A DNA stretch of 57,952 nt from Desulfobacteraceae bacterium (GCA_021372635.1 JAJFUA010000116.1:1-57952), one strand, 5' to 3'; shown: positions 6,202-52,377, counted from the first letter of the stretch. Translations and numbers: made by a program. Notes: a model not told the origin generated them from the sequence alone.

Positions 6202-6447
6202 TTATCTCCAATTCCAAACGATTCTAGAGCGGATCTCCAGGCACAGTGCGTTATCCATCGATGCAATCGCCGTCCAGTCATGGCTTTTGAGCATAAAACC
6301 TTCTGCACTCCTGTCGTGCTTTACTCTGGGAGCGCAATTGCTTTCTGCTGAGGCCGGAGGCAGTTCAGCCGGTACTCCAAGATTTTCCCGGCGAACTATT
6401 TGCCCGGCGGTTCGCAATCGAAGAATCCAGTCCTTTGAATCCAACAT
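6202..6447 (-). CDS. Small unrecognised ORF coupled between acyltransferase and deacetylase genes
   Basis: An 81-codon open frame whose ATG overlaps the acyltransferase stop (TAATG, 6449-6445) and whose own stop lies three bases before the next gene's ATG. This fits translational re-initiation and makes a small protein plausible. The product (begins [12 protein letters not shown], ends WNWR) has no signal peptide, membrane helix or motif that I recognise. There is no Shine-Dalgarno sequence of its own. It could equally be a spacer that happens to be open, or a decayed gene end, because it is in the same frame as the following deacetylase-like gene. Confidence 0.4.
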   Translation of the reverse strand: MLDSKDWILRLRTAGQIVRRENLGVPAELPPASAESNCAPRVKHDRSAEGFMLKSHDWTAIASMDNALCLEIRSRIVWNWR

Positions 6448-6935
6448 TAGCTGGGTCTTATGGGAAATAGATTGGAGACGAAGTCGTCATAGCATTTTGC
6501 CTGATTCGCGGGCTTTCTGACGGTAGCCACAGGCGCTGCCGGAACTCCGCTGACCAGCGTAAAAGGGGGGACGTCGGCATTGACAACACTCCCGGCACCT
6601 ATGACCGAGCCCTCGCCGACGGTCACGACCTTTCCTCCGGGTGCTGAAATGGTGCAGGATGGTCCAATATAGACGTTCTTCTGGATAATGAGCTTTCCGG
6701 TACCACAAAAGTGGGCGAGGACGAGCACTCTGGGGGCAATCTCAACCCCTTCGTGTATTTCAACCTGATTCGGGTATTCATTTTCCAAATAGACATCATC
6801 GCCGATGAATACATTCCCGGCAATTTTTACTCCTCGAAGCCTGTGCAAGAAAATGCGGGCCTTGGAGCCCGGTATGAATCGGGCCAGCTTATGGAGCAAC
6901 CTGTTGATGATTCTTCGTGATAAAGGTTGTCTCAT
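6447..6935 (-). CDS. Left-handed beta-helix (hexapeptide) acyltransferase
   Basis: A 162-residue LbH acyltransferase with hexapeptide turns from about residue 35 to 135 ([49 protein letters not shown]) and the usual closing [11 protein letters not shown] histidine at VLAHFCGTG sits where the catalytic His of maltose/serine O-acetyltransferase relatives lies. These cytoplasmic trimers pass an acyl group from CoA, or in some families from ACP, to a sugar or amino group. It lies directly downstream of an ACP gene and an FkbH gene, so it is the best candidate to use the ACP-bound acyl group. Good GGGAG ribosome site before the ATG at 6935. Confidence 0.85.
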
Positions 6936-6952: not shown

Positions 6953-7192
6953 CTAAAGCAGGTGTTTTGAAACTGTCGCCTTGACGGTTGACAAACTCTT
7001 CAGTTCCACCATTTCATCCTCGGTGAAACGAATATCGAATTTCTCTTCGAGTGCCAGTATGAGTTCAATGTGCTTAAGTGAGGTCCATGCAGATTCCCGC
7101 CCTCGCACAACCTCCTCATTGAGCCCGAAAGGCTGTTTCATAACCAGGGAAAAGGTCTCCACGACGATGCTCTCCATTTCACTTTGGATCAT
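6953..7192 (-). CDS. Discrete acyl carrier protein
   Basis: A 79-residue four-helix carrier protein. The phosphopantetheine site is Ser38 in [17 protein letters not shown]; the usual Asp before the Ser is Thr here, as in several ACPs paired with FkbH proteins. It needs a holo-ACP synthase from elsewhere in the genome. The start at 7192 has a GGGAG site and makes a 14-base overlap with the FkbH gene; an alternative ATG at 7177, two bases after the FkbH stop, lacks a clear site. Pairing with FkbH and a hexapeptide acyltransferase implies that it carries a short hydroxyacyl (glyceryl-type) group rather than a fatty acid. Confidence 0.9.
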
Positions 7193-10793: not shown

Positions 10794-11231
10794 ACACACG
10801 TGCCTCGATTCCATACACTTTTCTTCTGGCCGCACTATGTTTTCGGAATTCCGACGGTAATTGCTGAGCCGCCTTTTCGGCAAATCCCTTTGGACAAGCC
10901 GGTCAGCATGGGGTCTCCCGGGTTTTCGGCCTTCCGGCCATGGTTCCGCCCCAGCGGTCGGTCCATGTGGGCCGGTCCTCTTTCTTGAAAAAACGCAACC
11001 GCTTAAGTGAGAACAGGGAGACCTGTCGCAGAGGGAGTCATGGGTTTGATCGTCATAATTCTGACTGAGTCATGAGTCTGGCATGAGAGCCTTCTTGAAT
11101 TTGCCTCGCGGACGGTCCCTTTCCCCGGAGCGTCGGAGGAATCCGTTTTTTCTCAGACATTTAAAAATCGTACCTCCGTCATTTCTCTGGCGTCCGGACC
11201 GGCATCTCACCGCGCCGGGGTGCCGGGAGGA
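10794..11231. other. Intergenic region between deacetylase gene and IS630 remnant
   Basis: A stretch of 438 bases without a supportable gene. No trace of the DDE-domain half of an IS630 transposase was found in any frame, although that is where OrfB should lie. A run TTTTTTCTCAGACATTTAAAAA around 11146-11167 is the only AT-rich patch. The leader and promoter of the minus-strand deacetylase gene must be in the left part, but I could not define -35/-10 or sigma-54 elements there. Confidence 0.5.
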
Positions 11232-12308: not shown

Positions 12309-13556
12309 ATGCAGTTTGGTGAGAAACGTATTAGAACAGGAAGTATTGCCAATTTACGTCTGTCCATCTTCCTGTACGCATTGACAGTTATTGCAGGCAT
12401 TCACGTATTCTGCGGAAGCGCGTATGCGCTCACCGCCACACTGAAATGGTCCGCATCCCCGAGTACGGGGATTTCCGGATACAAGGTCTACACGGGTCTT
12501 TCCAGCGGGAAATACAGCCAGGTTGTCAACGCCGGGAACAGCACCACGGCCGCCGTTTCGAATCTCCAGGTGGGGCAGAAGTATTACTTCGCGATCACGG
12601 CCTACGACACCAAGGGCAATGAAAGCCCGTTTTCGCAGGAACTGGCCTACACGATGAACGACGGTTCCGTGATTCCGTACTCGCAACTGACGGTGGAATC
12701 CGTCGACAGCGAAGAACTTGCCGGGGAGAACGGCGCGGCGGTCAACGCGATCGATTCACGGACCGGCACGATCTGGCACACTCAATGGAGCGGCTCCAGC
12801 CCGTCGTATCCCCATGAGATCGTCATCAAGCTGAATGGATGGTACCAGGTCAACGGTTTTCGATATCTGCCCCGCCAGGACGGAGGGGTCAACGGCATGG
12901 TGGCCAAGTACAGCTTCTACGTGAGTACAGACGGCGTCAACTGGGGCACCCCTGTTTCGACGGGCACATTTGCCGCCGGCACCGGCCAGAAGCAGGTGCT
13001 TTTCACGGGAAAGCAAGGCTACTACGTCAAGCTGGTCGGTCTCTCCGAGATCAACGGCGGTCCCTGGATGAGCGCCGCAGAGATCAGCGTTCTGGGCACG
13101 CCTGCCACGGTCGTCCTGCTGCCCTCCACCCAGTTGGCCGTCGTTTCTGCGTCCAGCGAAGAGTTGATCGGTGAGAACGGCGCGGCGGAAAACTCCATCG
13201 ACGGACTGGTGAACACGATATGGCATACGCAGTACAGCAGCGTGCGGCCGGTCCCGGCGTACCCGCACGAGATCGTCCTATCGCTCGGAGCCAGCCGCAA
13301 CGTCGTGGGATTTCGCTACCTGCCCCGCCAGGACGGAGGAATCAACGGCACGGTGGCAAACTATAATTTCTATGTCAGTTCCGATGGGGTAAACTGGGGC
13401 AAACCGGTCGTTTCCGGAACAATGGCCAAGGACACCAAACAAAAAGAAGTACTCTTCAGCGGGAAGACCGGTCTTTACGTGAAATTCCAAGGTCTCTCGG
13501 AAGTGAATGGCAATCCCTGGATGAGCGCCGCCCAGATAGGAGTGATCTGCCGTTAG
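12309..13556 (+). CDS. Exported protein with fibronectin III and two discoidin (F5/8 type C) domains
   Basis: A 415-residue protein. An extended signal peptide ends near residue 40 (AYA). Residues 42-118 are a fibronectin III-like fold (ATLKWSASPSTGISGYKVY, YYFAITAYDTKGNES). Two discoidin domains follow at about 125-265 and 275-415, each with the signature EELxGENGAAxNxID, IWHTQ, FRYLPRQDGGxNG, FYVSxDGVNWG, GLSExNGxPWMSAA. Discoidin modules bind glycans, so it may be a matrix protein holding the polysaccharide made by this locus. A strong GGGGGG site precedes the ATG. The same module type occurs three times in the 41354-44620 gene on the other strand. No catalytic domain or PEP-CTERM anchor is seen. 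Confidence 0.88.
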   Translation: MQFGEKRIRTGSIANLRLSIFLYALTVIAGIHVFCGSAYALTATLKWSASPSTGISGYKVYTGLSSGKYSQVVNAGNSTTAAVSNLQVGQKYYFAITAYDTKGNESPFSQELAYTMNDGSVIPYSQLTVESVDSEELAGENGAAVNAIDSRTGTIWHTQWSGSSPSYPHEIVIKLNGWYQVNGFRYLPRQDGGVNGMVAKYSFYVSTDGVNWGTPVSTGTFAAGTGQKQVLFTGKQGYYVKLVGLSEINGGPWMSAAEISVLGTPATVVLLPSTQLAVVSASSEELIGENGAAENSIDGLVNTIWHTQYSSVRPVPAYPHEIVLSLGASRNVVGFRYLPRQDGGINGTVANYNFYVSSDGVNWGKPVVSGTMAKDTKQKEVLFSGKTGLYVKFQGLSEVNGNPWMSAAQIGVICR

Positions 13557-13949
13557 GGCGGCGAAGCGGCGAATGAAAGCGGTGTATCGGCTGCCGCCGG
13601 ACGCGCAAAGGCCGCTCGACGGGCTTCCCTCGCTCGGCATGGTTTCCATGCAGGGAAGCGGCGGAGCGATCAGTTGACACGGGTCGCCGTGGCCACCTTT
13701 GGGCACGCTGCCATATTGGAACACGTTGAAAACTTCTCGATGGCGCCGAACGGCGACGCAAACGACGGCCCGGAATCCCGGGCCGTAAAGGAAGCAGGTG
13801 AAATGCCATCGCCTTGCGGGTTCTTTTCAACGGGCTCATCTGAGTCTCTCGCGCTAATGTGAAAGCTGCAAGCTTCAGAGGATGGCCGATCCCAACCTGC
13901 GGCGGAAGATCCTTTGGACTTTCACGGGAAAATATTTCTGGAGAAGATT
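13557..13949. other. Intergenic region between the two plus-strand secreted-protein genes
   Basis: 393 GC-rich bases with no supportable gene. They contain a perfect hairpin at 13765-13786, a smaller one around 13637-13651 (GCATGG/CCATGC) and a weak sigma-54-like match TGGCCACCTTTGGGCA at 13690-13705 (GG and GC ten bases apart, but a poor -12 box). The length suggests that the beta-helix gene may be transcribed separately from the discoidin gene. Confidence 0.45.
13765..13786 (+). terminator. Perfect 9-bp hairpin, possible transcription stop
   Basis: ACGGCCCGG and CCGGGCCGT pair perfectly around a four-base loop. It is a strong GC stem about 210 bases after the discoidin-protein stop. No T-run follows on the plus strand, so a classic intrinsic terminator is not complete; it could be a processing or attenuation structure. 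Confidence 0.4.
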
Positions 13950-15485
13950 ATGAAAATCAGGCAGTTGTTTTATCTGACGGGTTTTGTTTTCCTTTTCGTC
14001 TGCTTCCTTTCCGGAAGCTGTTTCGCTGCGACCTACTATGTGGGGACAAACGGGAAAGACACCAATAACGGGAGCCTGGCAGCTCCGTGGGCAACTCTCA
14101 ACCGGGCCAACGCGGTGGCGGTGTCCGGCGATACGGTCTATGTTCGAGGCGGAATCTACAATCAAAAAGCGTACCTGGACAAGGCGGGAGTCACATGGCG
14201 TGCCTACACCGGGGAGGTGCCGATTATAGACGGCGGCTGGCCCGGTACATTGGCGGGCGACTCGCAGGGGTTGCCTACAGGTACCGACAGGTATGCCGCA
14301 TTGATCTTCATTGTCGGAAGCAACATCACCTTCGATGGCTTTGAAGTGCGCAACAGCAGAGGCAGGGGGATAGAAGTATACGGAGCCCCCATCACCAACG
14401 TGACGATCAGAAACTGCAAGGCTCATCACACCTTCAACGAGAGTTTTCTTCTCATCGGCGGTACAAAACCCACCCAGTGGGTCACGAAGAGCCTGGTGGA
14501 GAATTGTGAATTCTACAACGGCGCAATGATACGGCCGATATACAGTTCAAGGGCCGATGGAACTCCCGGAACGGTGTTGGTTACCCGTTTCGACGGGTTG
14601 ACTTTCAGGAAGAACAAGGTCCACGATTCCTGGTACGACGGTGTGCTGGTCGGAGGGAATGTCACAGGCGACTATTCCAGCGCCAATGCGATCATAGAGT
14701 ACAACCAGATCTATGGGAACTACCAGGATCAGCTCGTACTTGTCGGAAACCGGTACAACACGGTCAGGTACAACCTGATTTACGGTACCTACCCGAATGC
14801 AAACGGTGAAAACGGGCGTGGTTCGGGGATATGGTTTGCCAACGAAACCACGTGGAACCTGCCCAACTGCTATTCGGAAAGCCATGTTTACGGCAACCTT
14901 ATTGCCAATACTCTCGTGAATATGTGGGTTGAGGGGCAGGGGGCCACATGCAAGATATACAATACGTATTGGTACAACAATACGAGCATCGAAGCGACCA
15001 GTTCGAATTTCTATATTGAAAGCTGGGCTGGAGGCGGGCACATCTTCAAGAACAACCTGGTGATACAAAGTGCCGGAAGCACCAGGATCGGAGGCGCCCC
15101 CTCAGGGGTTGTCACCGCAAACTACAATCACTGGTCCAGGATACCGGCATCGACGCTTTGCGGCCGGAACGATACCACCTATCCCGGCTACGCGTCCACC
15201 TCACCGTTGACTGCGAAGTCTACGGGCTGGAACTCCCTGCGGGGGGCATCCCTCACCGGGAAAGAGTTTGCCCTCCAGTCCGGCAGCGTCTGTATCCGCA
15301 AGGGGACGACGAGTCCGGTTACAAACCCTCCGCAGAGTTTCCTGAATGTGGGCTTGTCCAACTTCCTGACCAATGTCTTCAACCTGGTGAACCAGAACGC
15401 TACGAGCTGGGACATCGGCGGCTGCGTTTTTTCCTCGCAGCTGAGTGCTCCCGGAGCCCCCTATGTCGCCTCTGTGACGCCCTGA
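13950..15485 (+). CDS. Exported right-handed parallel beta-helix protein
   Basis: A 511-residue protein with a signal peptide at 1-26 (ends SGSCFA). The mature protein begins ATYYVGTNGKDTNNGS, the typical opening of a pectate-lyase-like beta-helix, followed by AAPWATLNRA and turns such as NITFDGFEVRNSRGRGIEVYG and NVTIRNCKAHHT. Members are polysaccharide lyases, epimerases or glycan-binding surface proteins. Near a GDP-mannuronate dehydrogenase, a lyase or C5-epimerase acting on the exported polymer is attractive, but catalytic residues cannot be assigned. ATG at 13950 is chosen for its GGAG site and clean signal peptide. The gene converges on gmhA. Confidence 0.82.
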   Translation: MKIRQLFYLTGFVFLFVCFLSGSCFAATYYVGTNGKDTNNGSLAAPWATLNRANAVAVSGDTVYVRGGIYNQKAYLDKAGVTWRAYTGEVPIIDGGWPGTLAGDSQGLPTGTDRYAALIFIVGSNITFDGFEVRNSRGRGIEVYGAPITNVTIRNCKAHHTFNESFLLIGGTKPTQWVTKSLVENCEFYNGAMIRPIYSSRADGTPGTVLVTRFDGLTFRKNKVHDSWYDGVLVGGNVTGDYSSANAIIEYNQIYGNYQDQLVLVGNRYNTVRYNLIYGTYPNANGENGRGSGIWFANETTWNLPNCYSESHVYGNLIANTLVNMWVEGQGATCKIYNTYWYNNTSIEATSSNFYIESWAGGGHIFKNNLVIQSAGSTRIGGAPSGVVTANYNHWSRIPASTLCGRNDTTYPGYASTSPLTAKSTGWNSLRGASLTGKEFALQSGSVCIRKGTTSPVTNPPQSFLNVGLSNFLTNVFNLVNQNATSWDIGGCVFSSQLSAPGAPYVASVTP

Positions 15486-17259: not shown

Positions 17260-18777
17260 TTAGAAGATCACCCCTTCGGGCTTTGACATGGACTCGTGCT
17301 GCTGCTCGTGATGGGGCGGCGGCGGGAAAACGAAGGCTTCCGCATCGTCCTGCGCATGAGCCGGCGGGTTTTTTTCTATCCTGCTTCGCATGCGCGTTCG
17401 AACCAGTTCGAAGAAGGTCTGGCACATGATGACGAGATCCATCCACACGTTCCAGTGCCGAACGTAGTAGAGCGTGACGGAAATTTCCTGTTCCACGTCC
17501 CGTGCTTCCCGCAGGGCCCAGTTCCCCATAATGCCGGGTTTCACCGCGAGAACGACGGGGAGCCACGCGTCATTCGCTCCGGCGGCCTCGACGGGAATGG
17601 TCCTGGGGCCGACCAGGCTCATCTGGCCCACCAGAACGTTGAACAGTTGCGGCAGCTTGTCCAGGCCGCTCTGGAACAGGAAAAGCTCGACGGGGCTCAT
17701 GGGGCGCCCGTTGTTGCGCGGCTGGACCCTTTTGCGAAAACTGCGGTAGGCCTTGAGAGTGGCCAGTCCGGTCCGGAACTTGTAGGTTTGAAATACGCCT
17801 CCGTCTCTGCCCCAGACCTGGAAGCTCTCGATGACGGGTCCTTTCCCTTCGATCAGGAGCAGGATTGCGATCGTCAGCATGGCCGGGACCGCGAAGGGGA
17901 TCATGAAGAGGCAGAGCGCGTAATCGATCACCAGCTTGACAATGGCGCTTATGCCCCCTGTGTAGCCGGCCTGGAAGCGCAGCAGGGGAATCCCTCCCCT
18001 GAAGCTCACCCGCAGGTTCATGAGACTCAGATCGCCGGCTTCCGAGGCGATCTGCACTTCGGGCTCGGAGCGGGTGAAGCCGGGTTTCAGAATGTCGCGC
18101 CTCGTTTCCCAGCAGATGGCGTCCGGCACGACGATGGCGAGGTTGACGCCTTCTCTGGAGGCGATTTCCCGGAACAGGCGCGAAGGCCCCAGGATCCTTT
18201 TGCCGGGCAGCACTTCGGTGCCCGAAGGATTGTAGTCGTCCAGGAAACCCGCAACGCTCACCATTCCCGACGTTTCCAACTGCTGGGCTATCGCTTTCGA
18301 TGCCTCGCTTGCGCCGAGTATCAATACCCTGTCGAGCAGCCGTCCCTTTTTCGACAGCATCCTCAGATACTGTCGGAAGAATGCCCGGCCTGCGCATACG
18401 GCAAGTATGCTCAGCACCCAGGTGCTGATGATCCAGCCGCGCGAAACCACCACCTCGCGCAGGAAAAAGCTTATGAAGATGATGCTGAACACGAAATAGC
18501 TGCATGCCCTGAATACCAGCATGTATTCTTCCGTTCCCCAGAACAGGTTCCGCCTGTCGTAGAGGCCGACGCCGTGCATGATCAACAGGAAAGGAACCAG
18601 AGAGAAAAAGAACAGGGGCAGATACATGCTGAAGGACGTGTCCAGGTTGTAGGGTATCAGCCCGCTGGATATCCGAAGCCCATAGGCCGAAGAAAAACCG
18701 GCGAAGGCCCCCAGGAGGTCCAGCAGAGCCAGATAGCACCAGATCTTCCAGTGTCTTGTGGAAATTTCCCTTTTCAT
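17260..18777 (-). CDS. Polyprenyl-phosphate sugar phosphotransferase (divergent WcaJ/WbaP type)
   Basis: 505 residues: four membrane helices (about 12-125), a CoA-binding-like domain (VLILGASEASKAIAQQLETSG), then a membrane hairpin and the bacterial sugar transferase core (VFQTYKFRTG, SGLDKLPQLFNVLVGQMSLVGPR). It starts repeat-unit assembly by placing a sugar 1-phosphate on undecaprenyl phosphate. The end of the core is divergent: the usual PGITGxWQVxGR reads PGIMGNWALREARD, and the tail is a disordered PPPPHHEQQH segment. Start 18777 has a GGGA site; the open frame extends 125 codons further without family similarity. A second, canonical sugar transferase is at 23376-24095. Confidence 0.82.
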   Translation of the reverse strand: MKREISTRHWKIWCYLALLDLLGAFAGFSSAYGLRISSGLIPYNLDTSFSMYLPLFFFSLVPFLLIMHGVGLYDRRNLFWGTEEYMLVFRACSYFVFSIIFISFFLREVVVSRGWIISTWVLSILAVCAGRAFFRQYLRMLSKKGRLLDRVLILGASEASKAIAQQLETSGMVSVAGFLDDYNPSGTEVLPGKRILGPSRLFREIASREGVNLAIVVPDAICWETRRDILKPGFTRSEPEVQIASEAGDLSLMNLRVSFRGGIPLLRFQAGYTGGISAIVKLVIDYALCLFMIPFAVPAMLTIAILLLIEGKGPVIESFQVWGRDGGVFQTYKFRTGLATLKAYRSFRKRVQPRNNGRPMSPVELFLFQSGLDKLPQLFNVLVGQMSLVGPRTIPVEAAGANDAWLPVVLAVKPGIMGNWALREARDVEQEISVTLYYVRHWNVWMDLVIMCQTFFELVRTRMRSRIEKNPPAHAQDDAEAFVFPPPPHHEQQHESMSKPEGVIF

Positions 18778-18791
18778 ATTTTTCCCGCATT

Positions 18792-23375: not shown

Positions 23376-24095
23376 CTAGTGGGCGCCGCGGCCGGAGAGA
23401 ACCGCCTTTGCCGTGCGTGAGATCAAGGCCAGGTCGTATTTGAGCGACCAGTGATCGACGTAGTGGAGGTCCATGCCGATCATCCGCTCGTAGGGCACTC
23501 TCCCGCGCCCGTCCACCTGCCAGGGGCCTGTAAGACCGGCGGGCACCGCCAGCCGGCGCAGCCATTCCGGCCGGTACCGTTCCACTTCGAATGCCTGCGG
23601 GGCCTGGGGTCCGACAAGGCTCAGATCTCCCTTGATCACGTTCCATAACTGGGGCAGTTCATCGAGGCTCAACCGGCGCAGGTGCCTGCCGACGCGCGTA
23701 ACGCGACGGTCGTCGACGAGCTTGAAGGCGTCGGTTCCGTCGGGGCATGCATGGCCTGGATTGTGGCCAGCAATCAACCGGTCGAGGAATTTTAAATGCG
23801 GCGATGTATCGGCCCGGTCGTGCATGGTCCGGAACTTCAGGCAAAGAAAGCGCCTGCCTCGCTGTGTCACCCGTTCCTGCCTGAAGAAGACGGGGCCGTT
23901 CGAGTCGAGGCGGATCAGTATTCCCAGCAGCACGATCAGCGGCGAAAGCAGTGCAAAGATCGACGCCGAAATCACCCTGTCGAGGACGAGCTTGACGTTC
24001 CATCCGAAGGTCCCGGAATAGGGAGGGGGAGGAAGCAGGGAAGCTTCGTCCATCTTCTTCGGGTCGGGAGCGCTCAGCCATCGGTCGTCATGCAT
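23376..24095 (-). CDS. Initiating bacterial sugar transferase (monotopic phosphoglycosyltransferase)
   Basis: 239 residues with one membrane segment (about 35-62) and the complete core: GPVFFRQERVTQRGRRFLCLKFRTM, RLSLDELPQLWNVIKGDLSLVGP, then PAGLTGPWQVDGRG. It moves a sugar 1-phosphate from UDP to undecaprenyl phosphate to start the repeat unit. The GPQ in place of the usual GPR, and proline within LTGPWQV, are small deviations. The gene overlaps the N-acetyltransferase by eight bases and probably uses that pathway's UDP-sugar. It is the second phosphoglycosyltransferase in the locus (see 17260-18777). Confidence 0.9.
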   Translation of the reverse strand: MHDDRWLSAPDPKKMDEASLLPPPPYSGTFGWNVKLVLDRVISASIFALLSPLIVLLGILIRLDSNGPVFFRQERVTQRGRRFLCLKFRTMHDRADTSPHLKFLDRLIAGHNPGHACPDGTDAFKLVDDRRVTRVGRHLRRLSLDELPQLWNVIKGDLSLVGPQAPQAFEVERYRPEWLRRLAVPAGLTGPWQVDGRGRVPYERMIGMDLHYVDHWSLKYDLALISRTAKAVLSGRGAH

Positions 24096-24687
24096 GCCGA
24101 AGAAGCTCCCTCACGGCTCCGTCCGATTTCTCGAAGGCAAGGCCGCAGGCGCATGCAGCCTGCAAAACCGGAGCATCCTCCCGGTGCGGCCGGAACGACA
24201 GCTTCCTGCCGCACCGGCACACCCACCCGGCGGAACGCGCCGGCGCTCCCAATACCAGGTTGAAATCGGGCACGTCGCGCGTCACCACGCTGCCCGCCCC
24301 GATCATGGCGAACCGTCCCACCCTGTTGCCGCAGAGGACGGTCGCGTTGGCCCCGATGGTTGCGCCTTCCTCGACCAGCGTCTCTTCCCACTTTTCCGGG
24401 AAGATCTTCGCCCGCGGGAACAGCACGTTGGTGAACACGGCATTCGGACCGATGAAGACCCTGTCCCCGATGCGAACCCCGGCCCAGATGGAGACGCCGT
24501 TCTTGACCACCACGTCGTCCCCGATGACGACATCTCCCTCGATGAAGCAGTGGTCGCCGATATTGCAGTTGCGGCCGATGACGGCCCCGTCCAGGACGTG
24601 GGCGAAGGCCCAGATCCTCGTTTCGGGCCCGATGGACCCGGTTTCCACGAGAGCCTGCGGATGCACAAAGGGGCTGCCGTCTTTCAT
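24088..24687 (-). CDS. Hexapeptide N-acetyltransferase of WbpD/WlbB type
   Basis: 199 residues, left-handed beta-helix throughout (IGPETRIWAFAHVLDGAVIGRNCNIGDHCFIEGDVVIG is the family's hallmark opening, split here into turns), ending in APARSAGWVCRCGRK and a CxC...CxC segment that looks like a small zinc ribbon. WbpD/WlbB acetylates the 3-amino group of UDP-GlcNAc3NA to give UDP-GlcNAc(3NAc)A. Its partners, the C3 dehydrogenase and the aminotransferase, lie just downstream in the same operon. The extra Cys pairs at the C-terminus occur in some relatives. Confidence 0.88.
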   Translation of the reverse strand: MKDGSPFVHPQALVETGSIGPETRIWAFAHVLDGAVIGRNCNIGDHCFIEGDVVIGDDVVVKNGVSIWAGVRIGDRVFIGPNAVFTNVLFPRAKIFPEKWEETLVEEGATIGANATVLCGNRVGRFAMIGAGSVVTRDVPDFNLVLGAPARSAGWVCRCGRKLSFRPHREDAPVLQAACACGLAFEKSDGAVRELLRHA

Positions 24688-38560: not shown

Positions 38561-40255
38561 TTATTGTGCCGAGACCGCCAGGAGGCCGGCTTGCGAGACG
38601 ACATCGGGATTCCAGCTGAAAACCAGGATCGTCCCATTTGCCTTGTATCGATATGTAAAATACTTTTCGACGAATCCCCTGATCGGTGGAGGGATCGTGG
38701 AGGGGTTGTCGAATCGCTGCACATCGACGAGCAGCCATCCATACCGGTGTTCGCTCAGGACCCTTTTTAACTCGTCCAGGCTGGTGATTGCCATGGCGTT
38801 GGAATAAACGTCCAGCGACAGGTCGCTTCCCTCGACGTGTCTGAAAAGATCCATGCCTCCGTTGTCGAGCTTGTATTGAACTTCGTCGCAACCGCAATAC
38901 ATTGCGGCGATGGGGATGCTTGCGACGACGATTTCTCCGGACTGCCTCGCCCCGTTCAGGAATCGACATGCCTTTTCCCAGTCGGCGTGATATTCCGCTC
39001 CGTAGTTTCCATCCTGGTTCCGGGAGAGCTTGAGTGCTCCATGGGCCGTGTAAAGGAACGGCACGGAAAACACAACGAAGAGGAGACTCATCGAGAGGAC
39101 GATGCACGATTTCCGCATCGTCTGGCTGCGCCACTCGATCGTTCTGAAACTGTCGACGACCAGAGAGACCGTTTTTTCACCAAAGCTCGAAATTGCGTAG
39201 CCCGCGATCAGAAGAACGAGGGGGAAGATGTCGTACACGTATCTCCAGCCCTGGACGTTGACCGCGAAAGAATGTACGGCCAGCGGAGTCGCGGTGATGA
39301 CAAGCGTATAAAATCCTTCTTTGTTCCATCTCGATAAGAGTTCGATCGAACCCAGCGCGAAAAACACCATGAACGGAAACAGCATCGGGCTGATCAGATA
39401 ATTGAAATATCTCGTCGCAGATGTTCCGACCGATTTGTTCCACTCCGGAGTGTAGGAATAGTGCTCGATGAATTGCGACTGCACCTGCGGTATCAAAAGG
39501 GCGATCGTCATGGCGAAAACGATGGCAGAGGAAAATACAAAGTACTTCGACCGCAGGAACTGCTCTTTGGATTTGCCGGGAAGCGTGACGACCAGCATGG
39601 CCAGGAGGTAAATCAGGACGCTCAGCGGGAAGACTCCGGCCAGGTGCTGGAGGTGAAATGCGATGCCGAAGGAGGCCATGCAGACGATCAGCCAGTTCCA
39701 TTTCAGGCCCCATGTGCAAACCAGGCGCGCGAGGAACGGCCTGCCGCCGCCGTGCGCGGCATCCGGGGAGGGAGTTTCCCGGCTTTCAAATGCCCTGTAG
39801 AATGCATAGAAGGCGCCGAGGTAAAAGAACTGGTACATGCTGTACATCCGGCAGGCCCGCGCCCAGGAGACTTCGAAAGGAACGAACGCCATCAGGAATG
39901 CGGCCGCAAGGCCGACCTTCCTGCCGAAGAAGTCGCTCCCGATCTTGAAAAGCAGCAGGATGGAAAACATGCTGAACAGCACGCTCGGCATCCTGGCGGC
40001 GAACAGGCTGGCCCCCATGATCTTGAATGAAACGGCGACCAGGGATGTAAACAGCAGGGATCGCGTATACTCGAATCCCGAGGGAAGCGTCGGTTCGCCG
40101 GTTTGCAGTATCGACATGGCGGCGTAGATATGAATCGGCTCATCGAAGCCCGGCCCCAGGGTCGACAGGCCCGCAACCCTCAGGTACAGCCCCAGGAGAA
40201 GGATGAATCCCAGGGCAACGCAAACGGCCGGTGATTTCAGTTTTTCTTCGTTCAT
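38561..40255 (-). CDS. GT39/ArnT-like membrane glycosyltransferase
   Basis: 564 residues with about eleven to twelve membrane helices. The first periplasmic loop carries GPGFDEPIHIYAA, the DE-type catalytic motif of dolichyl/undecaprenyl-phosphate-dependent GT-C enzymes, then a CRMYSMYQFFY helix. The last ~130 residues are a soluble periplasmic domain. It would transfer a sugar from a polyprenyl-phosphate donor to a glycan, lipid or protein in the periplasm. It is seven bases after the YdjM-like gene's start-side neighbour in operon order and follows no dedicated donor synthase nearby; the GT2-GtrA gene at 1778 could serve it. Confidence 0.83.
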   Translation of the reverse strand: MNEEKLKSPAVCVALGFILLLGLYLRVAGLSTLGPGFDEPIHIYAAMSILQTGEPTLPSGFEYTRSLLFTSLVAVSFKIMGASLFAARMPSVLFSMFSILLLFKIGSDFFGRKVGLAAAFLMAFVPFEVSWARACRMYSMYQFFYLGAFYAFYRAFESRETPSPDAAHGGGRPFLARLVCTWGLKWNWLIVCMASFGIAFHLQHLAGVFPLSVLIYLLAMLVVTLPGKSKEQFLRSKYFVFSSAIVFAMTIALLIPQVQSQFIEHYSYTPEWNKSVGTSATRYFNYLISPMLFPFMVFFALGSIELLSRWNKEGFYTLVITATPLAVHSFAVNVQGWRYVYDIFPLVLLIAGYAISSFGEKTVSLVVDSFRTIEWRSQTMRKSCIVLSMSLLFVVFSVPFLYTAHGALKLSRNQDGNYGAEYHADWEKACRFLNGARQSGEIVVASIPIAAMYCGCDEVQYKLDNGGMDLFRHVEGSDLSLDVYSNAMAITSLDELKRVLSEHRYGWLLVDVQRFDNPSTIPPPIRGFVEKYFTYRYKANGTILVFSWNPDVVSQAGLLAVSAQ

Positions 40256-40262
40256 GGCTTGC

Positions 40263-40847
40263 TTACCGGCATCCCGTTGTCTTTATCCTGATGATCTTGA
40301 ACAGGGACAAGATGAAGCGGTTCAGGATCACAATCGACGACACCACCAGGATTTCGATGAGAATTACACGCAGATTGTACAGGGACAGGGCGCTCTCCAG
40401 GAATTGAGCAATGGATGCGTCGTGAAGGCTCGAGTGCGCCACGCCCGGCAGAACGGGAATGGGGGAGATGAAATACCGGTCGCTCAAAGGCCAGAACGCC
40501 GGTATGCCGAAGGGTTCCCTGCCGCTCGCCGAAAGGTAGTCCAGGAAGAGATGGGAACCGTACAGGACGAAAAACAGGGCGAAGCAGGCAAGCCGGCGCA
40601 GACCCAGCGTACCGGCGAAAACCGTGGCGAGAAGTCCGCAGGCCAGCAGCCCGAAGCCTATGCTGTGGCTCACGGCGTGGTGATACAGATTGGGCTGCCC
40701 CGCCAGCGCTCCCGGTATGAAATCCAGGTCCGGCAGGTTGCCCACCGCAACGCAGATCAGGGTCGGGCGGCAAAGAAGGCGGTTCGTCCCGAATACCTGC
40801 CTGGCTACCAGGTATCCGACCAGGGAATGTCCCACGGGTGACGGCAT
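40263..40847 (-). CDS. YdjM/DUF457-like membrane-bound metal-dependent hydrolase
   Basis: 194 residues with four to five membrane helices. Histidine motifs HSLVGY (7), HHAVSHSIG and GSHLFLDYLS, plus NLPDLDFI, are the metal-binding signature of the YdjM/LexA-regulated inner membrane hydrolase family. Their substrate is not known. It lies between the lipoprotein candidate and the GT39 gene, with gaps of 21 and 7 bases, so it belongs to the operon that starts with the SGNH protein or further upstream. Confidence 0.78.
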   Translation of the reverse strand: MPSPVGHSLVGYLVARQVFGTNRLLCRPTLICVAVGNLPDLDFIPGALAGQPNLYHHAVSHSIGFGLLACGLLATVFAGTLGLRRLACFALFFVLYGSHLFLDYLSASGREPFGIPAFWPLSDRYFISPIPVLPGVAHSSLHDASIAQFLESALSLYNLRVILIEILVVSSIVILNRFILSLFKIIRIKTTGCR

Positions 40848-40868
40848 CGGTATCTCGTCTCGCAGGGT

Positions 40869-41357
40869 CTAGTGACCGAGGACTTCGTCGACGATCTTCC
40901 ACGTACCGTCGGCATCCAGGTCGAGGAGCAGCTTGACTTCGAGATTGCCGCGGTCCGGGAATTTCAGGAGGACGTTGACGACGGCGAGATGACCGTCCAC
41001 CGGTGAAGAGGGCGCGAGGCGTCCTCTTTTGTTGTCCACGTAATCTCTCTGGAACAGTCTTTGATGCTTTTCGGCGACCATCTTTTCATTGCCGATGGAG
41101 GGGCGTTCCAGTTGGACGACAACCCCTCTGTAATACTTCCTCAGGAACTGGGGATAGTCTGCATTGTTATCCAGCAGTTTCTTCCTGGTCTTATAGTAAG
41201 GCCCGGCGATCATGGTCTTCATCGTTTCCACGTCCCCCTGACTGGACGCCTCATAAAACCTTGCGACCGTGTCCAGTGGTGCCGCCGGTTCGGCGCAGCG
41301 GGCGTTACAGGCCAGTACCAATACAAGCAGCAACGCTAGTGAGAGGCTGTTTTTCAT
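40869..41357 (-). CDS. Exported NTF2-like small protein, possible lipoprotein
   Basis: 162 residues. The hydrophobic leader KNSLSLALLLVLVLAC may be a lipoprotein signal with Cys17, or a plain signal peptide cut after CA at residue 21. The mature part (TVARFYEASSQGDVETMKTMIAG, LDLDADGTWKIVDEVLG) resembles DUF4878/NTF2-like folds, which bind ligands without known catalysis. The ATG at 41357 overlaps the stop of the SGNH gene (ATGA) and has an AGGA site; an in-frame ATG nine bases upstream lacks one. Coupling suggests the two proteins work in the same envelope process. Confidence 0.72.
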   Translation of the reverse strand: MKNSLSLALLLVLVLACNARCAEPAAPLDTVARFYEASSQGDVETMKTMIAGPYYKTRKKLLDNNADYPQFLRKYYRGVVVQLERPSIGNEKMVAEKHQRLFQRDYVDNKRGRLAPSSPVDGHLAVVNVLLKFPDRGNLEVKLLLDLDADGTWKIVDEVLGH

Positions 41358-44300
41358 GGCAAGCATCCTGAGTATTTTCCCAGTAAAGTGTCACGCCATA
41401 TCGCCGCCATCGATTGATACCCTGTCCCGTTGGGATGCAGTCCATCGGCTATCTGGGTCGGGTTCTTGGAAAAGAAGCAGTAGAAATCCGGAGGAACCAC
41501 GGGAACACTTTCCTCGATGGCAAGCTCGTCGATCACCTCGTTATATTCTTGCAGGGTTGTGTTGAGATACGCATACTGACCGGAAGCAATCGGGATTTTT
41601 GCCACGTAGGGAATCTTCCCGGCACCTTTGATTTTTCTCATAATCTGCCGCATATTGTCCTTATAGGAACCCGGGTACCCCGAGTCGCCGGTTCTCAGTC
41701 CCAGTCCGCTGGGAACGGGCGTCCAGGCGTCGTTGGTTCCGTACAGTATGAGGTAGTAGCAGGAAGAAACCTGCTCGGCCATCGTGGCGGCTATCTTCGA
41801 CAATCCGTCTATCGAAGCGTCTCCGCTGATTCCCTTGTTGATCACCGTGTGCGGCCAGCCTCTTGCCTGGGTCAACAGGTTGTTCAGTATCGGTTCGAAA
41901 CCCGGACTGGTGTTCCTGCCGTCGAGGGAAGTGTTGTCCGACGTGATGTCGTCGTGGGATCCCTTGGTTATGCTGTCTCCGACGGCGACGTAATAGTCTC
42001 CGATTTTCACATGGCTCACCCGGTTCGAAGTGTTGGCTCCCGCCATTTCATTTCCCGCCGCATCGATCAGGACGGCGTCGATCGTGTGCTCGGCGTGAAG
42101 GACTCCTTTGAAGGTCACTTCATAGGGGGCCCAATAGGCATCGTACGTGACGCCTCCCGTCCCCGCTCCTCCATTCAGCTTGAATCGTACTCCCCACCCC
42201 GCGTGCTTCGCGCTGTCCAGGCAGGCGTAGGCATGCACGTAGAGGTCGGGACCCCATTGCAGCGCGGAATCCCTGGGCTCCGAAATCGTGACCGAGGGGG
42301 CGCCCAGCAGGCATTCGGGCAGAGACAGGACATTGATCTCGGCCATGCTGGTCCAGGGATTTCCGTTGACTTCGTTCAAGGCCACCAGGCGTACATATTG
42401 ACCGACAACCGGGCTGAAGGCCACCGTCTTCTCCGTCGCGCTGTTGGCAAAGGACCCGGTGGCCACCGGGGTTCCCCAGTCCGTTCCGTTCGTGCCGACG
42501 TAGAACCGGTAGTCCTTGATCCGGCCGTTTACGCCGCCGTCCTGCCGGGGCAGGTAGCGGAACCCGGAAATCTCGTAGCGCGCTCCCAGGTTGATCTGGA
42601 TCTCGTGGGGAGGCGGAGGGCTGGTCTTGTAGTATTGCGTGTGCCAGATCGTCGTGTTTTTCCCGTCGAAGGAATTGACGGCAGCCCCTTTTTCCGCCAC
42701 CAACTCCTGGCTGTCCACGTATGACAGCGACCACCCGGTGTGAGAAATGGTGGCCGGCGTAGCCGCCAGCACCGTAATGGTACGGGTGTCGGGAGTTGGG
42801 TCGGTGAATCCCATGGCATCGGCCACAGTGAAGACGACGACATACGTGCCGGGATTGTAGAACCGCACCGGACCTGGATTCTGACTGTTCGAATCGGCGA
42901 TGGCCGGATCCCCGAAATGCCAGTTGTAGGTGAGCGGCGTGTTCCCGTCGGGGTCTGTTCCGGTACCTGCAAAGCTCACGGTCTCTCCCGCCGTGACGGT
43001 CACGTTGGTCGAGGGTTTCGTGATCGTGCCTTCCGGTGGAACATAGGGGCCGTTGACAACGGTAATGGTGCGGCTGGCAGGCGTGGGGTCTGCAAGCCCC
43101 TCGGAGTCGGTCACCGTGAAGGTCACGGTGTAGGTGCCGGGATTGTTGAACTGCACGGGGCCGGGGGACAGACTGCTCGAATCGGCGATGGCCGGATCCC
43201 CGAAATGCCAGTTGCAGGTGAACGAAGTATCCCCGTTCGGGTCCGTTGCCGTGCCGGCAAAGGTCACGGACTGCCCGGCCGCAATGGTCGCATTGGACGC
43301 AGGCGAGGTGATCGTTCCATCGGGAGGCAGATTGACCAAAGACAGCATGCCCACCACATTGATCTCGGCCATGGAGGTCCAGGGGCCTCCATTGACTTCG
43401 CTCAAGGCGACCAGGCGAACGAACTGTCCTATTGCCGTGGAGGTGGTTACCTGCTTTTCCGCGGCCGTATTGGCAAAGGACCCGGTGGCCACGGGGTTGC
43501 CCCAGTTCACCCCGTCTTCGCTGACGTAAAACCGGTAGTCCTTGATCCGGCCGTTTACGCCGCCGTCCTGCCGGGGCAGGTAGCGGAACCCGGAAATCTC
43601 GTAGCGCGTTCCCAGGTTGATCTGGATCTCGTGCGGAAGCGGGGTGCTGGACGGAGAGTATTGAGTGTGCCAGATGGTGGATGTTTTCCCGTCAAAGGAA
43701 TTGACGGCGGATCCCTTCTCCGCCAGCACTTCCTGGCTGTCCACGTATTGCAGGGTCCAGTTTGTATGGGCAATCACGGCCGGCACGGGCGCCTGGACGG
43801 TGACGGTCCGGACGTCGGGGCTTGGGTCGGTGAGCCCCTGCGAATCGGTCACGATGAAGGTGACGGTGTAGGTGCCCAGGTTGTTGAACTTGACGGCGCC
43901 CGGACTCTTGAGGGTGGAATCGGCAATGGCCGGATCACCGAAATGCCACCGGTACGTGAGCGAAGTATCCCCGTTCGGGTCCGTTGCCGTGCCGGCAAAG
44001 ACCACCGTCTCCCCGGCCGTGATGGTCACGTCGGCCGCAGGAGAAGCGATCGCTCCATTGGGCGGCAGGTTCACGGTGGACGGCACGCCCACAACGTTGA
44101 TCTCGGCCATGCTGGTCCAGGGGCTTCCATTGACCTCGCTCAAGGCCACCAGACGTATATAACGACCCGTAACCGGGCTGAAAGTCGCCGTCTTCTCCGC
44201 GGCGCTGTTGGCAAAGGACCCGGTGGCCACGGGACTGCCCCAGTTCACCCCGTCTTCGCCCACATAGAACTGGTAGTCCTTGATCCGGCCGTTTACGCTG

Positions 44301-44620
44301 CCGTCCTGCCGGGGCAGGTAGCGGAACCCGGAAATCTCATAGAGCGCTCCCAGGTTGATCTGGATCTCGTGGGGCAGACGGCTGTTGGTGGGATAATATT
44401 GAGTGTGCCAGATAGTCGTGGATTTTCCGTCGAAGGAATTCAGCGCCGCCCCATTCTCCGCCACCAGTTCCTGGCTGTCGACATATTGCAGCGTCCAGCC
44501 GGTACGCTCGATATTGCTCTGGCAGTAAGCCGGGCCAAAGAAAAAGATCGACCCGAGGAATACGAGAGCAATGGCGCACACCATGGCAGTGCCAATTTTG
44601 AAATCGATTGTCTTCTTCAT
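41354..44620 (-). CDS. Large exported multi-domain SGNH/GDSL hydrolase with three discoidin and three PKD domains
   Basis: 1088 residues. Signal peptide to about 34. Then discoidin 1 (~40-185), PKD 1 (~190-275), discoidin 2 (~285-430), PKD 2 and PKD 3 (~435-620), discoidin 3 (~625-775), an Ig-like region, and an SGNH hydrolase (~873-1088). The hydrolase has AVGDSITKG (Ser nucleophile), NKGISGDAS, LYGTNDAW and DGLHPNGTGY (Asp/His), a complete catalytic set. PKD cores show RWHFGDP or NWHFGDP. It probably removes O-acyl groups from the exported polysaccharide while anchored by glycan-binding modules. It starts 34 bases after asnB and is coupled to the next gene by four bases. Confidence 0.9.
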   Translation of the reverse strand: MKKTIDFKIGTAMVCAIALVFLGSIFFFGPAYCQSNIERTGWTLQYVDSQELVAENGAALNSFDGKSTTIWHTQYYPTNSRLPHEIQINLGALYEISGFRYLPRQDGSVNGRIKDYQFYVGEDGVNWGSPVATGSFANSAAEKTATFSPVTGRYIRLVALSEVNGSPWTSMAEINVVGVPSTVNLPPNGAIASPAADVTITAGETVVFAGTATDPNGDTSLTYRWHFGDPAIADSTLKSPGAVKFNNLGTYTVTFIVTDSQGLTDPSPDVRTVTVQAPVPAVIAHTNWTLQYVDSQEVLAEKGSAVNSFDGKTSTIWHTQYSPSSTPLPHEIQINLGTRYEISGFRYLPRQDGGVNGRIKDYRFYVSEDGVNWGNPVATGSFANTAAEKQVTTSTAIGQFVRLVALSEVNGGPWTSMAEINVVGMLSLVNLPPDGTITSPASNATIAAGQSVTFAGTATDPNGDTSFTCNWHFGDPAIADSSSLSPGPVQFNNPGTYTVTFTVTDSEGLADPTPASRTITVVNGPYVPPEGTITKPSTNVTVTAGETVSFAGTGTDPDGNTPLTYNWHFGDPAIADSNSQNPGPVRFYNPGTYVVVFTVADAMGFTDPTPDTRTITVLAATPATISHTGWSLSYVDSQELVAEKGAAVNSFDGKNTTIWHTQYYKTSPPPPHEIQINLGARYEISGFRYLPRQDGGVNGRIKDYRFYVGTNGTDWGTPVATGSFANSATEKTVAFSPVVGQYVRLVALNEVNGNPWTSMAEINVLSLPECLLGAPSVTISEPRDSALQWGPDLYVHAYACLDSAKHAGWGVRFKLNGGAGTGGVTYDAYWAPYEVTFKGVLHAEHTIDAVLIDAAGNEMAGANTSNRVSHVKIGDYYVAVGDSITKGSHDDITSDNTSLDGRNTSPGFEPILNNLLTQARGWPHTVINKGISGDASIDGLSKIAATMAEQVSSCYYLILYGTNDAWTPVPSGLGLRTGDSGYPGSYKDNMRQIMRKIKGAGKIPYVAKIPIASGQYAYLNTTLQEYNEVIDELAIEESVPVVPPDFYCFFSKNPTQIADGLHPNGTGYQSMAAIWRDTLLGKYSGCLP
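42315..42735 (-). repeat. Discoidin module DNA repeat, copy 3
   Basis: Encodes the third discoidin domain of the SGNH protein. A core of about 75 bases (42504-42580) is nearly identical to copies at 43528-43605 and 44268-44345, covering the GFRYLPRQDGG region. Confidence 0.75.
43345..43760 (-). repeat. Discoidin module DNA repeat, copy 2
   Basis: Encodes the second discoidin domain of the SGNH protein; closest to copy 3 in the shared core. Confidence 0.75.
44085..44495 (-). repeat. Discoidin module DNA repeat, copy 1
   Basis: Encodes the first discoidin domain of the SGNH protein; differs from copies 2 and 3 by a few bases in the core (GSVNG instead of GGVNG). Confidence 0.75.
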
Positions 44621-44654: not shown

Positions 44655-46568
44655 TTATGAAGAAAGCAAATTCCTGATTTCATCTATTGACTCATTTTCC
44701 ATGTACATCCTGTACCATATTTCAGCACTGCAAATCAGCCACAGCCGATTGCCGTGATCTGCGCGTTTCGTCAAGTGTTCATTGAGCAGCGTATCGACGG
44801 TTTCCTGATTTATATAGCCGCTCTGGGACAGGTGACATTTATGCAGAAAAGCATCATATATATGTCGGAATTCATCTTCGAGCATGTACGTGAGAGCTGA
44901 TGAAAATCCTTGTTTTTTCTTGTCCGTCAATGCGGTCGGAAGATGCCGCCTGGCGAGAGCTTTCTGTATGATCCGCCTTTTGGTGCCTTTCACTTTGAAT
45001 TTGCTGGGAATGGAAGCGCAGAATTCGGCAAGCTTGTGATCCAGGAAAGGCGCCCGAGCCTCGAGGCCGTGAGCCATGGTCATGCGATCCAGGACCATGT
45101 TCGGATGGTCGGGCATTCGGACCATGCTGTCCGAAAAGAGCATCCTGTCTATCGCTTCCGTGGCGTTCCCGCTGTCGAAGTATTCTCTTATGGTCGCCTC
45201 GGGATCGAACGTCGCGACGGCGCTGCGAAAGCTCTTCGTATAGAGACGCTCCTTGAAGCCGTCCGAAAAGTAGAAGTAGCCCAGGCTCTTGGCATAACGC
45301 TCGCTTTCGCTATAAAAAGACATTTCGTTCATCCATCGCAGCCTGTGACTCAGGCTGCGATACCAGAACCCCTCGGGGAGGAGCCGCAGCACTCTTCCGA
45401 TCAGGCATCGTCTCACCGCATCGGGAAGAAGGACGTAGTACGATACCAGTACGTTTCCATAGTAGCGGTCGTATCGGCCGAAAAGTTCGTCGCCGCCGTC
45501 GCCCCCCAGGACGACCTTGACCTGCCTGCCGGCAAATTCCGAGATGTAGTACATGCACACGGACAGGAGGTCGGACGGTTCGTCGAGGTGCCACACCAGG
45601 TCCGGGAGTGTCCGCACCAGCGACGGGGTGATGGTCAGTTCGTTGTGCTCGGTCCGGTACCGGTCCGATACCATTCTGGCAAACGGCAGTTCGCTGTAGC
45701 TGCGGTACGGAACGTCTCCGGAAAACGTCTTGACGGGCAGGTCCGTGGTCCCGGCCATCATGGCGACCACGAGGCTCGAATCCATGCCGCCGCTCAAAAA
45801 AGCGCCCACGGGCACGTCGCTGACCATGTGAACCCTGACGGACTCCCGCACCTGGTTTTCCAGGGCATCCACCACGTCGTCAAAACCTTCGGATAGCTTC
45901 GGCTCATAGTTCAACGCCCAGTATCGCTCCAGGAAAACCCGGCCGTCCCTGTATATGAGGTAGTGGCCCGGCGGAAGCTTTCGGATGTTCTTGAACATGG
46001 AGCGGGGGGGCGTGATGATCCGGATCGTCAGGTACTCGTAGAGGGCTTCGCAGTCGAGTTCCCTCAGCTCCGGATAACCGGCCAGCAGGGATTTGATCTC
46101 GGAAGCGAATGCGAACACGGGGCCGTTGTGATAGTAGTAGAGCGGCTTCTGTCCAAGATGGTCTCTGGCGATGAACAGCAGCTTCTCGCGGTGATCGTAG
46201 ATCGCGAAGGCGAACATTCCGCGCAAGTGCTTCAGACATCCGGTTCCCATTTCTTCGTACAGGTGGACGATGGTCTCCGTATCGCTCCTGGTCCTGAATC
46301 GATGCTTCTGCGCGAGGTTCTTCCCGAGTTCCCGGAAATTGTAAATTTCCCCGTTGAACGTGATCCAGACCGTCTCGTCCTCGTTGGCCATCGGCTGCCG
46401 CCCCCCTTCGAGGTCTATGATGGCAAGCCTTCGATGGCCGAAGCCGACGCGCCCGTTGACGTAGGCCCCTTCGCCGTCCGGTCCTCTGTGCGCGAGCACA
46501 CTGGACATCCGCTCGATTTCTTCGATCCGGACGCCGGATGGATCGATTCTGCCGCATATTCCGCACAT
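44655..46568 (-). CDS. asnB: Glutamine-hydrolysing asparagine synthase-like amidotransferase
   Basis: 637 residues. The N-terminal glutaminase has the nucleophile Cys2 (MCGICG), HRGPDGEG, HRRLAIID and FNGEIYN; the synthase domain has the PP-loop LSGGMDSSLV near residue 260 and GGDGGDELFGRY. AsnB relatives in glycan loci amidate uronic acids (as WbpS does) or act in exosortase-associated systems. Two uronic acid pathways (GDP-mannuronate and UDP-diacetamido-glucuronate) are in this locus, which makes sugar amidation more likely than housekeeping asparagine synthesis. It lies between the second flippase and the SGNH gene. Confidence 0.88.
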   Translation of the reverse strand: MCGICGRIDPSGVRIEEIERMSSVLAHRGPDGEGAYVNGRVGFGHRRLAIIDLEGGRQPMANEDETVWITFNGEIYNFRELGKNLAQKHRFRTRSDTETIVHLYEEMGTGCLKHLRGMFAFAIYDHREKLLFIARDHLGQKPLYYYHNGPVFAFASEIKSLLAGYPELRELDCEALYEYLTIRIITPPRSMFKNIRKLPPGHYLIYRDGRVFLERYWALNYEPKLSEGFDDVVDALENQVRESVRVHMVSDVPVGAFLSGGMDSSLVVAMMAGTTDLPVKTFSGDVPYRSYSELPFARMVSDRYRTEHNELTITPSLVRTLPDLVWHLDEPSDLLSVCMYYISEFAGRQVKVVLGGDGGDELFGRYDRYYGNVLVSYYVLLPDAVRRCLIGRVLRLLPEGFWYRSLSHRLRWMNEMSFYSESERYAKSLGYFYFSDGFKERLYTKSFRSAVATFDPEATIREYFDSGNATEAIDRMLFSDSMVRMPDHPNMVLDRMTMAHGLEARAPFLDHKLAEFCASIPSKFKVKGTKRRIIQKALARRHLPTALTDKKKQGFSSALTYMLEDEFRHIYDAFLHKCHLSQSGYINQETVDTLLNEHLTKRADHGNRLWLICSAEIWYRMYMENESIDEIRNLLSS

Positions 46569-51621: not shown

Positions 51622-52377
51622 TCAGCCGTCCATGTCGCTTCGGATTTGCCGGACCTTTGCCGGAACTCCGAAAGCGAGCGCATTCGCGGGGATGTCCCTG
51701 TTCACCAGGGAGGCTGCCCCTATCACCGCCGACTCCCCCACGGTCACTCCGTCCAGCACGATCACGCCCGTCCCCAGCCAGGATTTCGCTCCTATCGAGA
51801 TCGGACCCATGGTGTAAACCTGCTGGTCCATAACGGGAAGCTTCGGATTGTCGAAGCGATAGGAGCCCGCGCTGATCGTGCAGCCGCCCGCGGTCAATAC
51901 CGCCTCGCCCAGGACCACTCCGTCCATGGAAACTATGGAGGAATTGCTCCCCAGGCTCGTTCGCCTTCCCAGACGGATCGGTCCGGCCTTGGCCAGGATC
52001 ATGCAATTCCGGTTGACGATGACGCCGTCCTCGATGACGATTCCCTCGTCCCCCGCGCCCCGCCCGTCGATGACGCAGTTGTCGTCGATGGTCACGTTGT
52101 CTCCCAGGGAGATCTTGTCCGGATGGCGGACGACCACGTTGCGCCCCAGTATCAGGCCTTTTCCCGTTTTCCTGAAGAGCCGCGGGTAAGATATCCTTCG
52201 CAGATAGTACCCGACGGCTCCAGGCATCGGACCGAGAAAGCCGGTAATCAGTTCATAGAGGAGAAGGCGCGCCAGCCCGGAATTCCCCACGGTAAGGGAC
52301 ATGTAGGCGCCGACGGGGTTCCGGCGTGCCTCGGCCAGTCTTTCGCGGATCACCCGATCTTTGCTGATTGCCTTCAA
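51622..52377 (-). CDS. Hexapeptide acyltransferase (WcaF/colanic-type)
   Basis: 251 residues. An N-terminal helical region of about 75 residues is followed by a left-handed beta-helix with repeats such as LILGRNVVVRHPDKISLGDNV, IVIEDGVIVNRNCMI and IGAKSWLGTGVIVLDGVTVGESAVIGAASLVNRDIPANALAFGVPAK. It probably O-acetylates a sugar. The best start is TTG at 52377, eight bases after an AGGA site; the next ATG would cut into the N-terminal helix. It is the third hexapeptide acyltransferase in the window. Confidence 0.84.
   Translation of the reverse strand: MKAISKDRVIRERLAEARRNPVGAYMSLTVGNSGLARLLLYELITGFLGPMPGAVGYYLRRISYPRLFRKTGKGLILGRNVVVRHPDKISLGDNVTIDDNCVIDGRGAGDEGIVIEDGVIVNRNCMILAKAGPIRLGRRTSLGSNSSIVSMDGVVLGEAVLTAGGCTISAGSYRFDNPKLPVMDQQVYTMGPISIGAKSWLGTGVIVLDGVTVGESAVIGAASLVNRDIPANALAFGVPAKVRQIRSDMDG

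Follow-up and report, generated by a model that had tools for sequence, protein, structure and literature searches.

A modular secreted hydrolase of predicted carbohydrate-esterase type and its small conserved partner in bacterial polysaccharide loci

We analyzed a 57,952-nucleotide stretch of DNA from a Desulfobacteraceae bacterium (GCA_021372635.1 JAJFUA010000116.1:1-57952; hereafter the window), focusing on a minus-strand gene (41354-44620) for a modular, secreted SGNH hydrolase and on the gene for a small secreted protein directly downstream of it (40869-41366). The two genes recur as an adjacent pair across several phyla, and the conserved downstream position of the partner is a more informative feature than the layout of the esterase itself. 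The reading that we favor, at somewhat better than even confidence, is that of a secreted carbohydrate esterase tailoring the polysaccharide that its own locus produces, with a small partner of predicted NTF2-like fold assisting it. How sticky, gel-like and degradable a bacterial matrix becomes depends on acyl removal after export, and, to our knowledge, few secreted enzymes acting on the cell's own polymer are known outside the alginate, cellulose, poly-N-acetylglucosamine (PNAG) and Pel systems. A conserved enzyme-partner pair would offer a defined target across several phyla, and it hints at what a small protein family, unnamed in the libraries searched, may do.

A modular hydrolase with an intact catalytic domain

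The features of the gene pair, all on the minus strand, are as follows.

41354..44620, minus: modular secreted SGNH hydrolase, 1088 residues (open reading frame and Pfam)
44513..44620, minus: predicted signal peptide, residues 1-36 (hydrophobic stretch in the sequence)
44081..44512, minus: F5/8C (CBM32) module D1, residues 37-180 (Pfam and manual segmentation)
43784..44074, minus: PKD module 1, residues 183-279 (Pfam and manual segmentation)
43349..43777, minus: F5/8C (CBM32) module D2, residues 282-424, 77% identity to D1 (Pfam and manual segmentation)
43049..43342, minus: PKD module 2, residues 427-524 (Pfam and manual segmentation)
42770..43048, minus: PKD module 3, residues 525-617 (Pfam and manual segmentation)
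42323..42763, minus: F5/8C (CBM32) module D3, residues 620-766, 80% identity to D1 (WHTQY and LPRQDG shared with galactose oxidase domain 1)
42011..42304, minus: Ig-like domain, residues 773-870 (structure model; Big_7 match at the equivalent place in the relative at locus L022)
41396..41998, minus: SGNH/GDSL catalytic domain, residues 875-1075 (Pfam, alignment and model)
40869..41366 or 40869..41357, minus: small secreted partner, 162-165 residues (conserved directly downstream of family SGNH genes)

The larger gene is a single open gene with an ATG start, and its coordinates are exactly those given in an earlier note on this DNA. Pfam matched F5_F8_type_C (1.2e-75) and PKD_4 (1.2e-35) in three stretches each and Lipase_GDSL_2 (1.8e-20) at residues 879-1069, all well beyond the curated cut-offs. 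Together with manual segmentation, these matches bear out the order discoidin-PKD-discoidin-PKD-PKD-discoidin proposed in that note. Its figure of about 840 residues of binding and spacer modules was too generous: the arm is present and accounts for roughly two thirds of the protein, but it ends near residue 766 and gives way to an Ig-like domain placed between arm and SGNH domain. Both this domain and the downstream partner gene had been overlooked. We saw neither a lipobox nor a C-terminal sorting motif in the sequence of the hydrolase.

The catalytic blocks are intact, as the earlier note had held for a Ser/Asp/His hydrolase at the C-terminal end: GDSI (Ser883), GISG (Gly933), GTND (Asn963) and DGLH (Asp1059, His1062) complete the PF13472 signature of block I Ser, block II Gly, block III Asn and block V Asp-x-x-His. 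An AlphaFold2 model of the Ig-like and SGNH domains (predicted local distance difference test score, pLDDT, 89) predicts the three-layer alpha/beta/alpha SGNH fold. At E values of about 1e-11 to 1e-10, TesA and Axe2, an acetylxylan esterase, were its best PDB matches, followed by other GDSL esterases, and PatB was also among the structural and profile matches.

The protein resembles SGNH carbohydrate esterases such as Axe2 and the carbohydrate-binding members of carbohydrate esterase family 2 (CE2) in its SGNH fold, in blocks I, II, III and V and in its attached carbohydrate-binding domains (PMC9487903). Identity to these enzymes is about 20%. In CE2 a single N-terminal jelly roll is fused directly to the SGNH domain, whereas here the Ig-like domain intervenes and three CBM32 and three PKD modules lie further upstream. 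A DDxxSDxxSxDGRN insertion, invariant Lys987 and Lys1008 and a PSG motif are traits of its own family, unlike the Axe2 and CE2 esterases.

The partner gene

The second ATG of the partner gene (41357) overlaps the stop codon of the SGNH gene as ATGA. Partner genes were found directly downstream of the SGNH gene, on the same strand and with gaps of -4 to +41 nucleotides, in 14 loci from several phyla. These include L018, L019, L020, L021, L022, L023, L025 and L026, of which the L025 partner was not among the sequences of the first partner profile, and five held-out loci fetched later (L106, L110, L111, L113 and L114). The sole exception to this otherwise strict gene order was L084, where the contig begins with a partner-like fragment upstream of a broken SGNH frame. 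Whole-genome searches of 12 carriers found the partner as a single copy in nine, there only beside the SGNH gene, and among 345 sampled genomes of the source phylum a secure match was seen only in the source genome, with one marginal partial match (7.7e-4) elsewhere. Furthermore, the distances of SGNH proteins and partners were correlated (Mantel test, r 0.81 for all pairs; r 0.43, p 0.003, n 11 with close pairs removed). The enzyme and the small protein thus probably work together.

No Pfam or NCBIfam model reached its cut-off so as to name the partner family. GD, LL and YPxFLR residues are conserved in the partner. Its model (pLDDT 82) has helices followed by a sheet, and an NTF2-like fold is tentatively predicted. 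Foldseek returned the CaMKII hub at 8e-4, a weak match with a template-modeling score of about 0.4; Tim44 and SnoaL were sub-threshold hits. The partner is like these NTF2-like or cystatin-like proteins in its predicted helices and sheet, with weak matches, and unlike them in being secreted, tied to SGNH genes and without a library model that names it. A bolder proposal, which we advance tentatively, is that the two proteins form an undescribed, horizontally spread two-part module for acyl-tailoring exported polysaccharides, with the small protein serving as a dedicated chaperone, tether or specificity subunit.

Relatives and their gene neighborhoods

Relatives were first found with a three-row profile. 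The family, defined by the Ig-like and SGNH domains, was seen at 37-49% identity in metagenome-assembled genomes (MAGs) labeled Planctomycetota, Nitrospirales, Proteobacteria, Chromatiales, Pseudomonadales, Thermodesulfobacteriaceae and Deltaproteobacteria. Later profile searches recovered it in a few Nitrospirota genomes and, within the class to which the Chromatiales MAG belongs, in 14 of 274 sampled genomes, including the previously known G444 and G435. The SGNH blocks, a PSGxGL motif, Lys987 and Lys1008 are constant across the family, and the DDxxSDxxSxDGRN insertion follows block I in all but L027. Most relatives likewise carry the Ig-like domain joined to the SGNH domain. This core is the constant part of the family and the arm is variable; in the first set of relatives the combination of CBM32 and PKD modules recurs in L018, L019, L020, L021, L023 and L029.

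In a tree of SGNH domains, the source copy lay nearest a Planctomycetota copy in a poorly resolved region and without good support. Transfer between phyla is therefore likely rather than established. No family match was found by tblastn in plasmids and phages, and viral contigs held only generic SGNH proteins (24-31% identical) outside the family. Also placed outside the family were distant SGNH proteins of the source phylum (L007-L009), each of which ends in a glycine-rich CFIATAAFGS segment and a hydrophobic tail. A small conserved secreted protein precedes each of these genes, an arrangement that looks like a further SGNH pair, here with a sorting-like tail. A further observation concerns a 2316-residue relative (L082, 5810-12760, plus strand) whose SGNH domain is internal and whose accessory domains are repeated; its gene adjoins an Rhs/YD-repeat-like gene.

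Across Nitrospirota, Planctomycetota, Pseudomonadota and former deltaproteobacteria, the pair is found next to polysaccharide loci of the flippase type as well as of the ABC-exporter type. Wzm/Wzt genes lie beside family SGNH genes in L020, L021, L023, L029, L111, L114, L115 and L116, with a Wzt-like open reading frame in L025; Wzx occurs in L022 and L024, and OPX and Wzz in L019 and L110. In addition, a carbamoyltransferase and a hexapeptide transferase adjoin the gene in L018, a polysaccharide deacetylase in L021 and a sulfotransferase in L029. None of 12 control loci of distant SGNH proteins carried any assembly or export gene tested, a contrast that is inflated because the query proteins were drawn partly from family loci; L110, L111, L114, L115 and L116 are independent of the query proteins.

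The source locus and the binding arm

The genes of the source locus that bear on the substrate, besides those listed above, are the following.

12309..13556, plus: second secreted CBM32 protein, fn3-CBM32-CBM32, without a catalytic domain (domain scan)
51622..52377, minus: WcaF-type hexapeptide acetyltransferase (best score against WcaF-type exopolysaccharide acetyltransferases, below the curated cut-off)
24088..24687, minus: NeuD/PglD-like hexapeptide acyltransferase (best score against a NeuD/PglB/VioB sugar acetyltransferase model, below cut-off; adjoins the initiating sugar-phosphate transferase)
6447..6935, minus: hexapeptide acyltransferase of no clear subtype (near an FkbH-domain gene; scores below curated cut-offs)

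The contig, from a MAG that is 90% complete with 6% contamination, also encodes about ten glycosyltransferases, an initiating sugar-phosphate transferase, two Wzx-type flippases and a UDP-sugar dehydrogenase. In our reading, its SIS, GHMP-kinase and nucleotidyltransferase genes fit the synthesis of an activated heptose. The CBM32 matches, these neighbors and the loci of relatives support the assignment, made in the earlier note, of a secreted hydrolase of predicted carbohydrate-esterase type with glycan-binding-type modules in a polysaccharide locus. That the enzyme walks on its polymer, as the note suggested, is another matter: nothing supports movement. The note had also pointed to three acyltransferases in the same locus. 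All three open reading frames exist, but their products are hexapeptide enzymes of cytoplasmic type and one is likely a sugar N-acetyltransferase, and the argument drawn from them is weakened on that account. The protein of 24088-24687 would add an N-acetyl group, not an ester, and so would supply no esterase substrate; that of 51622-52377 could add O-acyl groups and is the leading candidate for supplying such an ester in the locus.

Modules D1-D3 share 76-80% identity in protein and 80-82% in DNA, and because of this they look like duplicates inside one gene. Their matches to galactose oxidase domain 1 and to the module of Micromonospora viridifaciens sialidase span the whole module (E 1e-29 to 1e-27), and D3 retains the WHT...LPRQDG loop pattern when aligned to the galactose oxidase CBM32. 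By these likenesses the modules belong to CBM32, with carbohydrate binding predicted; judging by their loops, they would be expected to prefer galactose or galactosamine. Unlike in galactose oxidase and the sialidase, three copies with PKD spacers are joined here to a predicted esterase.

The CBM32 modules of the second secreted protein are 50-58% identical to D1-D3 and carry the same WHT and LPRQ loops; for this reason the two proteins probably share a ligand, which we infer to be the polymer made by their own locus. The fn3-CBM32-CBM32 product resembles a lectin or matrix protein belonging to this locus. Several CBM32 proteins in one polysaccharide locus are likewise seen in L029 (1-6638, minus strand), where two more CBM32-bearing open reading frames adjoin the SGNH relative, one of them of 1254 residues with cadherin-like repeats.

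Proposed mechanism and alternatives

We propose that the three nearly identical, PKD-spaced CBM32 modules would bind the polymer at several points, and that the Ig-like/SGNH core would cleave ester-linked acyl groups from it by a Ser-His-Asp mechanism with a covalent acyl-serine intermediate. The small, predicted NTF2-like protein, made from the overlapping next gene, would act together with the enzyme, most likely as a binding partner required for folding, placement or substrate access. Literature searches among open-licence papers returned no precedent for this combination.

The main rival, which we consider unlikely, draws on the alginate system as the nearest analogue: the SGNH domain would be an extracytoplasmic acyltransferase that adds acyl groups during or after export, like AlgX, PatB or OatA, and the partner would be an AlgF-like bridge. 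AlgX is a known CBM-bearing SGNH acyltransferase of an exopolysaccharide system (PMC9487903), PatB is among the matches of the core, and AlgF is described as a small accessory mediator of protein-protein contacts in PMC10641220; a small partner conserved across the family fits an AlgF-type complex. The likeness to AlgX, AlgJ and PatB thus extends to an extracytoplasmic SGNH domain with a CBM in a polysaccharide system and, in the alginate case, to a small accessory protein. Unlike those systems, in which a membrane acyl donor is co-encoded, the source contig holds no MBOAT or Acyl_transf_3 gene that we could find, nor was one found among ten scanned neighbors of relatives in a scan that was not exhaustive. 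In the hydrolase, moreover, the Ser and the DxxH stand in canonical GDSL-type order, the closest structural matches (TesA, Axe2) are hydrolases, and the partner is by prediction NTF2-like. With no donor found on the contig, ester hydrolysis is more likely than AlgX- or OatA-like transfer.

Two further readings we regard as improbable. Were the protein mainly a matrix protein or lectin, its arm anchoring or cross-linking extracellular polymer and its SGNH activity minor, the size of the arm and the catalytically empty fn3-CBM32-CBM32 protein in the same locus would fit well; yet it is the core that stays constant in the family while the arm varies, and all catalytic residues are retained. The idea of a scavenging esterase, placed in this locus incidentally and used for nutrition on foreign acylated glycans (algal, plant or a neighbor's exopolysaccharide), appeals to the many CBM-carrying SGNH esterases of glycan-degrading bacteria (PMC9487903) but is at odds with the fact that in several phyla relatives recur next to genes for polysaccharide assembly and export, and no glycoside hydrolase or uptake transporter was recognized beside the SGNH gene among the scanned open reading frames of the contig.

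Several points weigh against the esterase-and-partner reading that we prefer, as does the inflated control contrast noted above. The SGNH superfamily holds both esterases and acyltransferases, which sequence alone cannot separate (PMC9487903); MBOAT and Acyl_transf_3 genes, which would suit the acyltransferase alternative, are present on other contigs of the source genome; and we found no biochemistry for any family member in the literature. The partner is absent from the carrier genomes G440, G443 and G444 and was not found in seven of 12 held-out genomes, of which the flanks only were searched. Relatives often carry other accessory domains (golvesin-C-like, 3-keto-disaccharide-hydrolase-like, Ig) or none, and CBM32 binding therefore falls outside the core function. 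Export genes were present in the flanks of nine of the 15 relatives in the control comparison and about six of 13 in the later-fetched set, several flanks being short; no such assembly or export genes were seen in the flanks of L027, L028, L082, L083, L107, L108, L113, L117 and L118. The named relatives, finally, come mostly from environmental MAGs, so that binning errors are possible.

Other genes of the window

The open reading frames 40252-40902 and 17570-18790 were judged spurious. The gene at 44655-46568 (minus strand) encodes an asparagine-synthase-like amidotransferase whose nearest model belongs to the XrtA/PEP-CTERM system, with a score below cut-off; the scanned open reading frames of the window included no exosortase. 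Two large proteins (9003-10883 and 4456-6198, minus strand) had no Pfam or NCBIfam match, and their motifs recall NodB-type deacetylases (for example SHSRTHP and HGVNH), possibly PelA-like. Adjoining the second CBM32 protein is a secreted right-handed beta-helix protein (13914-15485, plus strand), possibly a polymer lyase or epimerase. The FkbH-domain protein (7179-8870, minus strand) lies near the hexapeptide acyltransferase of 6447-6935, and together the two may attach an unusual acyl or glyceryl group to a sugar.

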